Assembly (NCBI GenBank): GCA_021812345.1
Contig: JAKANP010000001.1
Span: 1 to 54,978, forward strand
Reading direction: 5' to 3'
DNA from: a bacterium
GTDB lineage: Bacteria; Patescibacteriota; Minisyncoccia; UBA6257; JAGOQP01
DNA: 54,978 bases
Below are positions 6,079 to 30,319 of this stretch, piece after piece. Position 1 is the first letter of the stretch. Each line of letters begins with the position of its first letter. The position numbers and the translations under genes were made by a program. The notes under the pieces were generated by a model. It was not told the DNA's origin, did no database searches, and worked only from the letters and a program-made list of their open reading frames with translations.

Positions 6079-6104
6079 ACTTTTTTATCAAAGTAAAATA
6101 AGAT
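6076..6104 (+). promoter_or_regulatory. Sigma70-type promoter TTGACT-N17-TAAGAT for rplJ leader
   Basis: Direct match with 17-nt spacer. Confidence 0.6.
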
Positions 6105-6111
6105 ATTTACA

Positions 6112-6190
6112 AGATCCGCAGACAGCATGCATCCTTTAAAAAAGGAATAAGACATGCCGAGGAAACAAGCTTTATTTATATAGCTGCGGT
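6112..6190 (+). ncRNA. Ribosomal protein L10 leader
   Basis: CCGCAGACAGCATGC...ACATGCCGAGG...CTGCGG: P1 CCGCAG/CTGCGG, GCATG/CATGC helix and internal CCTTT/AAAGG hairpin, matching the remembered L10-leader pattern. Confidence 0.8.
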
Positions 6191-6218
6191 CTTTTCAAAA
6201 GGTCGCATTTTTATTTTT
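6186..6218 (+). terminator. Attenuator terminator overlapping 3' strand of L10 leader P1
   Basis: GCGGTCTTTTCAAAAGGTCGC followed by ATTTTTATTTTTT. Confidence 0.65.
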
Positions 6219-6229
6219 TAGAGTATTTT

Positions 6230-25849: not shown

Positions 25850-25922
25850 GCGCCCGTAGCTCAGCTGGTAGAGCAGCTCCCTTTTAAGGAGATGGTCGAA
25901 GGTTCGATTCCTTCCGGGCGCA
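25850..25922 (+). tRNA. tRNA-Lys (anticodon TTT), CCA not encoded
   Basis: GCGCCCG/CGGGCGC acceptor; CTTTTAA anticodon loop; GGTTCGATTCC T-arm. Confidence 0.94.
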
Positions 25923-26308
25923 CAAAATAATGCCGCCTTGTCATGAGGCGGTATTATTTTGCTCGAGAAGGAATCGAATAGAGAGGGGTCGGGAGACGCT
26001 TAGTCTCCCGTGTAGGAAAACAGCAAAGCGTCAGAAACCGAGGGTTTCTGACGAAGCGCGTTTAGCGTCCGAGGTGAGATTCCTTCCGGGCGCACAAATA
26101 ACAAAAATACCCCATCGGGGGTGTTTTTGTTATGGTGTGTCAGAAAAGAAATCGAATGCGAACCCCCGTGTTGGAAAATAGGAGCGAAGCGACGTAAGAA
26201 ACCAGAAGGTTTCTTAAGTGGGGGTCGGGGGTAAGCGGTGAGATAGCGAAGCGTCCTTCCGGGCGCACAAAATAATGCCGCCTTGTCATGAGGCGGTATT
26301 ATTTTTTT
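25909..26308 (+). repeat. 52-bp perfect direct repeat of tRNA-Lys 3' end plus terminator (25909-25960 / 26254-26305), with a third partial copy at 26079-26100
   Basis: TCCTTCCGGGCGCACAAAATAATGCCGCCTTGTCATGAGGCGGTATTATTTT twice; ATTCCTTCCGGGCGCACAAATA between. Confidence 0.9.
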
Positions 26309-26875: not shown

Positions 26876-27526
26876 ATGAATAACAAAATAAAATTATTTA
26901 TTTCCGTTTTTTTGGTTTTTGGACTAATCGCTTTCGGAGCTTTTCAATTAAGTAAAGCGTTTGCCGATCAGGAAAATGGAGATAACAGTAGCGCGAGTAG
27001 TAATAACGGCAATAGTAATAGCAACAGCGGATTAAATGGAATAGGTAGCATTGTCAGAAATTTGGCTCAGAGTCAAGGTCAGGAAGGAGAAAGCCAAACC
27101 GAGAGTCAGAGTCAACAAGGTAGTGATAATCAATTTGGTCAAAACGGAAATTCTTTTTCAATCAGCAATTCAGGAATGGTTTCGGTTAACGGCGCCTCAC
27201 TGGTTTCCGTTTCGGGAAATTCTTTTACGGCTAAAGTTTTCGGACTGACTTTGAATTTTATCACCACTTCTTCAACTTCTTTAATGTGGCAAGTTTCATC
27301 CGCTTCTTCTACGGTAGTTTCAATCACCGATATGAAAGTGGGGGATTCAATAAATGTTAAAGGACAGATAGACAGCTCTTCTGGACTTGTAAATGCAACT
27401 CAAGTTATGGACCAGAGCTTGAATCAACAAAATATTTCAAGCATTCAACAACAGATTCAGAATCTTTTGAATCAATTGAATCAATTAAGAAATCAACTTA
27501 ATCTTCAGACTGGAACCGGAAGATAA
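26876..27526 (+). CDS. Secreted Ser/Asn/Gln-rich protein with DUF5666-like beta domain
   Basis: Signal peptide; VSVNGASLVSVSGNSFTAKVFG...TDMKVGDSINVKGQIDSSSGLVNATQV. Confidence 0.6.
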   Translation: MNNKIKLFISVFLVFGLIAFGAFQLSKAFADQENGDNSSASSNNGNSNSNSGLNGIGSIVRNLAQSQGQEGESQTESQSQQGSDNQFGQNGNSFSISNSGMVSVNGASLVSVSGNSFTAKVFGLTLNFITTSSTSLMWQVSSASSTVVSITDMKVGDSINVKGQIDSSSGLVNATQVMDQSLNQQNISSIQQQIQNLLNQLNQLRNQLNLQTGTGR

Positions 27527-27550
27527 GTTTTTGATCTTAAGCTTGGATAT

Positions 27551-27580
27551 AAAACACGCGCGTTGCGCGTGTTTTTGATT
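27551..27580 (+). terminator. Intrinsic terminator
   Basis: AAAACACGCGCGTTGCGCGTGTTTTTG. Confidence 0.8.
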
Positions 27581-27615
27581 GCAAATTAACATATATTTAA
27601 TGTTAATTTGTTAAC

Positions 27616-27644
27616 TTGACAATTATTTAATAATATGATAAGAT
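27616..27644 (+). promoter_or_regulatory. Strong sigma70-type promoter TTGACA-N17-TAAGAT
   Basis: Consensus -35, 17-nt spacer, 5/6 -10. Confidence 0.75.
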
Positions 27645-27650
27645 AACAAC

Positions 27651-28084
27651 CGAACAGTCAAGATCAAACAAGTGATGTAATAAAAATGAAATTCGACGTT
27701 TGATCTTGAGGAAAGGAGAGAGTGTGCTTTGAACCGTTATCTCCCCAAGCTAATAGCTATCAAGTTTTATAGATAGCCAAAACCTGACCATCCCGGGGAG
27801 AATGGTCAAAAAAGTGGAGGACACGTATGTCCATGTCATACTCGCTGGGTGATACTATCCCGTAAGAGAAAAACCAGGCCCTCTTGCGGGGTAGTAAAAA
27901 AAATCCGTCTAGCCAGCGGTTGGAAGAGTCTTGGGGGTGGCTCTTCCCGTAAAAAATACCCTCAAAAAATCCGATTTGTCACCCAAAAATGAAGTCGATG
28001 AGAGGGGTTTACGAGGGCGCCCTTCTCATCAAAAAAAAGCCCTCTTTGTACACTGGGCGCTACATCTTTGTAGCGCCTTTTTTT
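27651..28084 (+). ncRNA. Unassigned large structured RNA (~430 nt), hairpins separated by A-rich linkers
   Basis: Promoter upstream, terminator downstream, no long ORF; stems 27658-69/27698-709, 27785-91/27802-08, 27854-68/27881-95, 27922-30/27939-47, 27997-28007/28020-30. Confidence 0.65.
28056..28084 (+). terminator. Intrinsic terminator of structured RNA
   Basis: GGCGCTACATCTTTGTAGCGCCTTTTTTT. Confidence 0.9.
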
Positions 28085-28089
28085 ATTTA

Positions 28090-28118
28090 TAAAAAAATCT
28101 CCGCTTAAAAGCGGAGAA
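28090..28118 (-). terminator. Intrinsic terminator for 28160-30319 gene
   Basis: Minus strand TCTCCGCTTTTAAGCGGAGATTTTTTT. Confidence 0.75.
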
Positions 28119-28159
28119 AAATAAAGTGTGCTGATTTAAAATTTGTTAATTGCCAATTA

Positions 28160-30319
28160 TTAATTGAGAGGACAACTCAGGTTGTTCCAATCATCCAGCG
28201 TTGATACCAGTGAAAGCATCGTATTTCTATTTCCGCTTGAAAGAGCGGAATTAACGCTACTAATAACACCAGAAGCGGAATCTGGATAACGCATATTCGG
28301 ATAAGAGCTATTCAACAAAGCGGCGACAGCGCTTCTCAAAAGAATTTCTGCCGCTCCTTCGGTAGTTGAACCGCCTTTGAAATAAAGAGCTCCAATCAAA
28401 GATGAATTTCCCAAATTTGAATACAAATTTGAAGCGTAGAAAACGCTTGAAACGGTTTGATTTGGAGAGTATCCGGTGGCTCCCCAAGATCCTGGATGAT
28501 TTTTCCAGTATCCTGGAGAACATCCTCGATTACTTGGAGTTGGAGTCTTGGTCGGAGTTGTGGTCGGTGTTGGCGGAGGAGTCGGAGTTCTTGTCGGTGT
28601 TGGAGTTGCAGTAGGTGTAAACGGAGGAGTCGGAGTTTTTGTTGGTGGTGGAGGACAAGTCGGGGTAGCAGTCGGCGGCGGAGGGGTCGGAGTTTTTGTC
28701 GGGGTAGCAGTCGGCGGTGGAGATGTCGGAGTAGCAGTTGGAGTTGGAGGACAAGTTGGTGTTCTCGTTGGTGTTGGAGTCGGGTTTGAACAATTGTTGA
28801 CGGTTGTGCTTACTGTATTGCTATTTACCCAAACACTGAAGTTTGAATATTCCTTTGAAGTAATCTTAGCGGTGTTATAAATAATATTTGGCTGAACGCA
28901 TGCGGGCTTAATTGTTGAAAATTCCGTATCGCCTTCAATTGTAGAGTTAATACTATTTATTTTTCCTGTCCAAGCCACCCATCCGGATTGTCCCGGAGTC
29001 AAAATTCCCGCATTCCAAGTAAGAGTTCTTGAACTAGGAGAATACAAAGGAATATTTAGATATCCGGAAACAACATTCGAGCTATGACTTTCACTTATGA
29101 AAGTAAGTTTTGGACTTACAACGTCAATTACCTTTACGCCTCCACCGGTGCAATTTGCCGTTCCGACGTTTGAAAAAGTAATTGTGTAATTCAACGAGTC
29201 GGAATCGCAAGCTTGAGTTTTGTCAACCGTTTTTTGAATTTGAAGCAAACATTGGCCGAATACCGGCGGCGTTGCTGTCGGAGTTGCGGTTGGCGTGGAA
29301 GGAGGGGGCGTTGGAGTTGTTGTCGGAACAGGCGTTGGCGTTTCGGTGGGCACAGGAGGAGTCGGAGTGCCTGTCGGTACCGGAGTCGGGATGCACCACG
29401 AAGGCAGCGCTCCGCTTCCGTAAGGGAAATTGTATTCTCCTTCAACGAACAAAAGCGTATCCCCGTTTGATCCCGGGATTCTAAAAGCAATTGATCCCGT
29501 TTCAGCCGGCAGATTCAAATCGGCAATTGAAATCGGTTGGACTCCCCAAACATTAATATTGCGAATGTCTATCAGATTTCCTTGACTGTCGTATGCCTCA
29601 ACCGAAAGCGGTTGAAGATAATTTGAGTCGTTTGGAAAATACGACGGCATCATCGGGACAAAATTCCAGTTCCAAATCAAAGCCGTTGTGTTTGTGTTCA
29701 AACTTTTTTGATTGTTGAATTCGATAATTCTGTATGAACAGAAGTCAAAACACGAATAATCGGATCCGGACATAAGCAGTCTGTCGGCTTCAACCTTCTG
29801 ACCGTCCTTGTTTAGGTAATAATAATTTCCCCAAAAATATTCCAAATCTCCTTGCCACCAATCCAAATCCAATTTGACAAATCCGGTCAGAAATCCGGGG
29901 AGTGTATCCGCCGAGTGATATTTTCCGTCGGCTGGAGAAATTTTTCCTCCAAGTTCCGATTGAATTCTGTCGATTTCGGAAACGCTGAGACTGGTTCCAT
30001 CGGGCGATTTTCCGTTGATAATCCAATCCTTAAGATCGATGGTTTTTGTCCCATTTGCGGGAATAGTCACATATGCTCTGGCAACTTGAATTCTCCAGTT
30101 GGAATAAATCGTAAGCCAAAACGGAGCGTTGTAATTTGATTTATTTCCAATCGTCATCTCTGTTGTTTCAGGCGAATCGATTCCCACTGCAAAATATGGC
30201 AAGAGCAAAGAATTTGAGGGAGTCGGAACGGGATTTCTGTTGCTCCACATTCCGGCCGCAATTGTTGTCAACGCAATCAAAATCAAAAACGTCAAAACAA
30301 GTCCGGTTTTCTTTTTCAT
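28160..30319 (-). CDS. Large secreted protein: signal peptide, N-domain, PT-rich linkers, DUF11-like domain, C-terminal CSPGYWKNHP domain
   Basis: TPTPP(V/P)PT repeats; LQIQKTVDKTQACDSDSLNYTITFSNVGTANCTGGGVKVIDVV; GCSPGYWKNHPGSWGATGYSPNQTV; SD GGGAGG. Confidence 0.75.
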   Translation of the reverse strand: MKKKTGLVLTFLILIALTTIAAGMWSNRNPVPTPSNSLLLPYFAVGIDSPETTEMTIGNKSNYNAPFWLTIYSNWRIQVARAYVTIPANGTKTIDLKDWIINGKSPDGTSLSVSEIDRIQSELGGKISPADGKYHSADTLPGFLTGFVKLDLDWWQGDLEYFWGNYYYLNKDGQKVEADRLLMSGSDYSCFDFCSYRIIEFNNQKSLNTNTTALIWNWNFVPMMPSYFPNDSNYLQPLSVEAYDSQGNLIDIRNINVWGVQPISIADLNLPAETGSIAFRIPGSNGDTLLFVEGEYNFPYGSGALPSWCIPTPVPTGTPTPPVPTETPTPVPTTTPTPPPSTPTATPTATPPVFGQCLLQIQKTVDKTQACDSDSLNYTITFSNVGTANCTGGGVKVIDVVSPKLTFISESHSSNVVSGYLNIPLYSPSSRTLTWNAGILTPGQSGWVAWTGKINSINSTIEGDTEFSTIKPACVQPNIIYNTAKITSKEYSNFSVWVNSNTVSTTVNNCSNPTPTPTRTPTCPPTPTATPTSPPPTATPTKTPTPPPPTATPTCPPPPTKTPTPPFTPTATPTPTRTPTPPPTPTTTPTKTPTPSNRGCSPGYWKNHPGSWGATGYSPNQTVSSVFYASNLYSNLGNSSLIGALYFKGGSTTEGAAEILLRSAVAALLNSSYPNMRYPDSASGVISSVNSALSSGNRNTMLSLVSTLDDWNNLSCPLN
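28548..29400 (-). repeat. Low-complexity Pro/Thr-rich coding repeats in two blocks (~28548-28790 and ~29265-29400)
   Basis: GTCGGAGTT/GGTGTTGG iterations on plus strand. Confidence 0.8.

Follow-up and report, generated by a model that had tools for sequence, protein, structure and literature searches.

Positions 27616-28084 (+ strand) of the 54,978-nt DNA stretch analysed here (the window) form a predicted transcription unit by itself, composed of a promoter, a strongly folding RNA of about 430 nt and an intrinsic terminator. With roughly even confidence, we read it as a lineage-restricted, fast-evolving, stand-alone gene for a structured non-coding RNA (ncRNA) that is probably constitutively promoted and acts in trans. 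Judged by sequence, the locus qualifies as an independent ncRNA gene, having its own promoter and terminator and, in the two sequences compared, a conserved structure and no conserved reading frame. The RNA looks so far undescribed: it is not in Rfam 15, and a limited literature search found nothing on it. An earlier note on this DNA had proposed a candidate novel or lineage-specific ncRNA, a view now supported by the lack of an Rfam family and by a syntenic homolog with compensatory changes in a second genome of the genus (G002).

The sigma-70-type promoter TTGACA-N17-TAAGAT, already recognised in the earlier note, lies at 27616-27644 and has a TG one base before the -10 element. The predicted structured ncRNA spans 27651-28084, and its last part (28056-28084) is the intrinsic terminator GGCGCUACA/UGUAGCGCC-T7, whose hairpin (28056-28064/28069-28077) and T run to 28084 bear out the strong terminator claimed before; indeed, all sequence pieces quoted in that note were recovered at or near the positions it gave. 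On the 5' side, a gene for a secreted-looking protein without Pfam match (26876-27526) ends in its own terminator (27556-27572). The gene on the 3' side (28160-30319, - strand) is convergent, encodes a DUF11 domain and likewise has its own terminator (28098-28117). Since both neighbours are terminated separately and the downstream gene is convergent, the RNA unit stands alone. In total, region 27400-28250 holds six terminator-like sites versus 0.7 expected. As had been stated, no long open reading frame is present: those overlapping the RNA on the + strand are all of 53 aa or less, and none is common to the G002 homolog. The RNA is single-copy in its source genome (G000).

The one secure homolog occupies the syntenic place in G002 (public contig JAJXZH010000017.1, L025 1433-1668), where the ortholog of the upstream protein (83% identical) is followed, as in the window, by terminator, promoter, RNA, terminator and convergent gene. 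The G002 promoter, TTGACA-N17-TAATAC with TG (extended -10), is identical to that of the window at 30 of 35 aligned bases. The RNA is about 230 nt long in G002 versus about 430 nt in the window, the difference being ~200 nt of extra hairpins in the latter. Both fold far more stably than expected: the folding energy of the window RNA is -149.9, compared to -109.8 +/- 5.4 for dinucleotide shuffles (z = -7.4; none of 100 shuffles as low), and z is -7.2 for the G002 RNA. Local alignment of the two scores 10 sd above shuffles. With a family of two secure sequences alignment shuffles are powerless, so that covariation is used here descriptively; and because motifs are read from two sequences whose flanks are also 78-91% identical, some motif identity reflects shared ancestry rather than constraint.

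Compensatory changes, which the earlier note had named as a test, are found in the 5' helix P1 and in the terminator. P1 (27658-27709, arms 27658-27669/27698-27709) comprises 12 bp, and when CAAG/CUUG is used as a manual alignment anchor, all 12 pairs are kept in G002, six of them changed on both sides. The terminators differ by one compensatory pair (U-A/C-G). Downstream of P1 (27708-27744), a purine-rich GAGGAAAGGAG is followed by CUUUGAAC, with GGAGA/UCUCC bracketing both; G002 has GAGGAGGGAC..CUUUGAAC..GUCCC, such that CUUUGAAC after a purine-rich stretch is common to the two RNAs. Hairpin B, ACUAUCCCGUAAGAG/CUCUUGCGGGGUAGU (27854-27895), has arms of 15 bp (27854-27868/27881-27895; 16 bp in the ensemble fold) and GGCCCUC at the 3' side of its loop; in its 10-bp core, shared as CCCGUAAGAG/CUCUURCGGG (R = G/A), the sole difference in G002 is a U-G to U-A change. 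The AGCCA element, present in both RNAs, is flanked by CCG/CGG in the window (27905-27918) and corresponds to the hairpin GUCCGAU-AAGAGCC-AUCGGAC in G002. Hairpin C, GGAAGAGUC/GGCUCUUCC (27922-27947, arms 27922-27930/27939-27947), has a G-rich 8-nt loop, and its place in G002 is taken by a 9-bp hairpin also with an 8-nt G-rich loop, GGAAGA/UCUUCC being common to both; compensatory changes were not counted here because the alignment is ambiguous by two positions. Finally, the linker A8-GCCCUC-UUUGUACA (28031-28055) precedes the terminator. AAGCCCUC and UUUGUACA are identical in the two RNAs, with 8 nt more between them in G002.

This arrangement largely agrees with the helices proposed earlier, as P1, the 15-bp helix at 27854-27895, that at 27922-27947 and the 11-bp helix at 27997-28030 were all found. 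The complementary TGACCAT/ATGGTCA is present as well (27785-27791/27802-27808) but is not part of the predicted fold, which instead pairs UCUCCCC (27740-27746) with the GGGGAGA (27795-27801) that lies in the TGACCAT/ATGGTCA loop. The A5-A8 runs said to separate the helices are reflected in a strong enrichment of A-runs (nine overlapping AAAAAA words versus 0.4 expected).

Relative to G002, the window RNA carries two insertions, each made of whole hairpins plus A-rich linkers. The first (about 27747-27852) contains extra hairpins and the stretch A6-GUGGAGG-N6-AUG; the second (27948-28030) contains A-rich linkers, an extra CCCUC and hairpin D, GATGAGAGGGG/CCCTTCTCATC (arms 27997-28007/28020-28030). 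Such a composition of the additional ~200 nt is expected if structure, not sequence, is kept. The same length difference (435 versus 235 nt in two species of the same genus) could be taken to mean that the locus is a decaying remnant or a neutral hairpin-rich spacer grown by tandem hairpin expansion and devoid of present function, in line with internal partial repeats of A8-UCCG/GCCCUC in the window RNA and with a third species of the genus in which no copy was detected. We regard this as rather improbable, as promoter, several structural elements and terminator are kept, with compensatory changes.

The A6-GUGGAGG motif raises a further alternative, namely that the transcript is a structured mRNA encoding a short peptide, or else an RNA that engages ribosomes. 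A6-G(U/A)GGAGG followed by AUG occurs in both species and is a strong signal for initiation, of a kind mostly missing from this genome. In the window, A6-GUGGAGG-ACACGU-AUG opens a 12-codon frame (27827-27865; peptide MSMSYSLGDTIP), whereas in G002 the frame after A6-GAGGAGG-GACA-AUG has three codons (MPL), and the two RNAs share neither a reading frame nor a peptide. Moreover, GGAGG is by itself not unusually frequent, and in the predicted folds its sites are for the most part base-paired (0.35 and 0.11 unpaired). A peptide-coding or ribosome-engaging RNA therefore has a small probability in our view, though a strong Shine-Dalgarno (SD) sequence plus AUG in both RNAs leaves room for ribosome engagement, the frame not being conserved.

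C-rich motifs invite yet another interpretation. CCCUC has three copies in the window RNA, where 0.2 are expected, and two in the G002 RNA, where 0.1 are expected; two of the copies lie at matching places, and an antisense sRNA acting in trans might pair these motifs, displayed in A-rich linkers, with G-rich translation starts of mRNAs. C-rich-motif sRNAs (UCCC-type) similarly have recurrent C-rich motifs in A-rich linkers; those of the window RNA, however, are base-paired to a large extent in the predicted folds (0.19-0.40 unpaired for CCCUC), and SD targets are scarce in the genome. By approximate counts with gene starts taken mechanically, a 5-nt SD sequence precedes the first ATG in only one of the window's 54 genes, and any start within the first 60 codons in eight of 54. 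As the window genes hardly have SD sequences, SD pairing is disfavoured, and we consider the antisense interpretation unlikely. CsrB/RsmZ-type sponges resemble the window RNA in their serial hairpins, linkers and terminator, but differ in that GGA is not enriched here (6 versus 7.4 expected in the window RNA, 6 versus 4.9 in G002), and this class was rejected.

Known RNA families fared no better. At the locus, no Rfam 15 family matched at gathering score, and a relaxed threshold gave terminator-like noise only, which agrees with the earlier failure to recognise the cores of tmRNA, RNase P, SRP or 6S RNA. The window has no RF00023 match, and the tmRNA of this genome resides on another contig (G000:C3:6183-6500). 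RNase P RNA had to be considered on account of GAGGAAAG after P1 and of the lack of an RF00010 match in G000; it is excluded, since G002 carries both an RNase P RNA (C30) and the homolog (C5) on separate contigs. RF00010 does not match at the locus either. Bacterial SRP RNA (RF00169), 6S RNA and all other Rfam 15 families were without gathering-score match at the locus. Nor is the RNA a conventional leader or riboswitch, because no co-oriented gene follows the terminator; the next gene is convergent, likewise in G002.

The Rfam searches also yielded some observations on the genome itself. RF00010 detects no RNase P RNA in G000 (725 kb, 27 contigs), while it finds one in each of the 12 remaining members of the family, in some cases very diverged (39-93 bits); in G000 the RNA has either fallen into a gap between contigs or diverged to an extreme degree. 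RF00169, the small bacterial SRP RNA, has no match in any of 13 genomes of family f1, where SRP RNA is either missing, diverged (a strongly diverged copy is possible) or of another type. A ribosomal protein L10 leader (RF00557) is found at 6098-6222 of the window, scoring 44.8 against a gathering score of 44. Gene starts in the window are preceded by A/T-rich sequence.

Beyond the two species, the search for relatives gave no further secure member. Nucleotide searches of 61 relatives found no match at E <= 0.001 outside the source genome, and a looser family-level search returned short chance matches only (15-46 nt). The 3' motif pattern matches only G000 and G002 among the 244 genomes of the order, and the G002 contig is the sole convincing match to AAGCCCTC..TTTGTACA..GGGCG in GTDB species genomes. 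In viral contigs, a looser form of the latter pattern gave chance matches in other contexts only and the hairpin-B pattern none; blastn against phage and plasmid sequences was equally without match. A covariance model built from the window and G002 sequences (R1) was run over the order (244 genomes) and 384 genomes sampled from the class, and a three-sequence model (R2) over 38 genomes with looser filters, neither revealing another secure member. The R1 matches inspected other than G237 (e.g. G241, G157, G381) and the R2 matches in G004, G001 and G044 are coding or unrelated sequence. R1 found no further copies in the dnaJ/tRNA-Lys neighbourhood of 20 genomes, nor did visual inspection next to tRNA-Lys in three f24 genomes. 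That no homolog was detected in the third species of the genus or in the rest of the order is odd for an important RNA.

One candidate comes from another family of the order: in G237, an intergenic stand-alone unit of ~215 nt (L057 ~1168-1390) has TTGACA-N16-TATAAT, a terminator and a fold z of -5.7, carries AGAGCCAUCGG identical to G002, and adjoins tRNA-Lys and dnaJ, genes that are also upstream of the window copy. Its R1 E value is 3.8e-4, and as false positives occur in the per-genome E range 1e-4 to 1e-2, such matches are not trusted and G237 is not acceptable on E alone. In addition, most similarity resides in the terminator, without which the alignment excess drops to 2.4 sd, and the fold differs. 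A broader proposal is that of a new family of large, rapidly remodelled structured RNAs in a bacterial lineage of very small genomes: the scaffold would expand as hairpins are inserted, a few motifs would persist, and the family might reach as far as G237. We put it forward tentatively, as doubtful but possible.

In the tRNA-Lys region of the window (25900-26307), the tRNA-Lys 3' end plus terminator (CCTTCCGGGCGCACAAAATAATGCCGCCTTGTCATGAGGCGGTATTATTTT) is repeated at about 26255-26307, and CCTTCCGGGCGCACAAA is also found at about 26082. These tandem tRNA-tail units of ~170 nt have very strong predicted structure, and a similar stretch is present in G002 (L025 1-105); they may be scars left by integration or a repeat derived from a tRNA.

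Returning to the stand-alone ncRNA, a trans-acting role appears most likely because there is neither a conserved peptide nor a cis gene, and the structure persists despite changes in sequence and length. According to this proposal, the RNA would be transcribed and fold into consecutive hairpins joined by A-rich linkers, with the helices serving as scaffold and stabiliser, and short conserved motifs outside helices or at a helix edge (CUUUGAAC, the AGCCA element, AAGCCCUC and UUUGUACA) would contact an RNA or protein partner in trans. Orphan RNAs from comparative genomics, such as OLE, ROOL, GOLLD and the raiA motif, are likewise independent, multi-helix and non-coding; in contrast to them, the window RNA has no Rfam match, a far narrower distribution and no ornate conserved core shown. 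OLE, ROOL and GOLLD are also far longer. Bacterial genomes of very small size are regarded as stripped of regulation. If our reading is true, an RNA gene of ~230-430 nt would provide a handle on RNA-based control in such genomes, and an example of RNA evolution by hairpin insertion, in which length nearly doubles while promoter, helices and terminator are kept.
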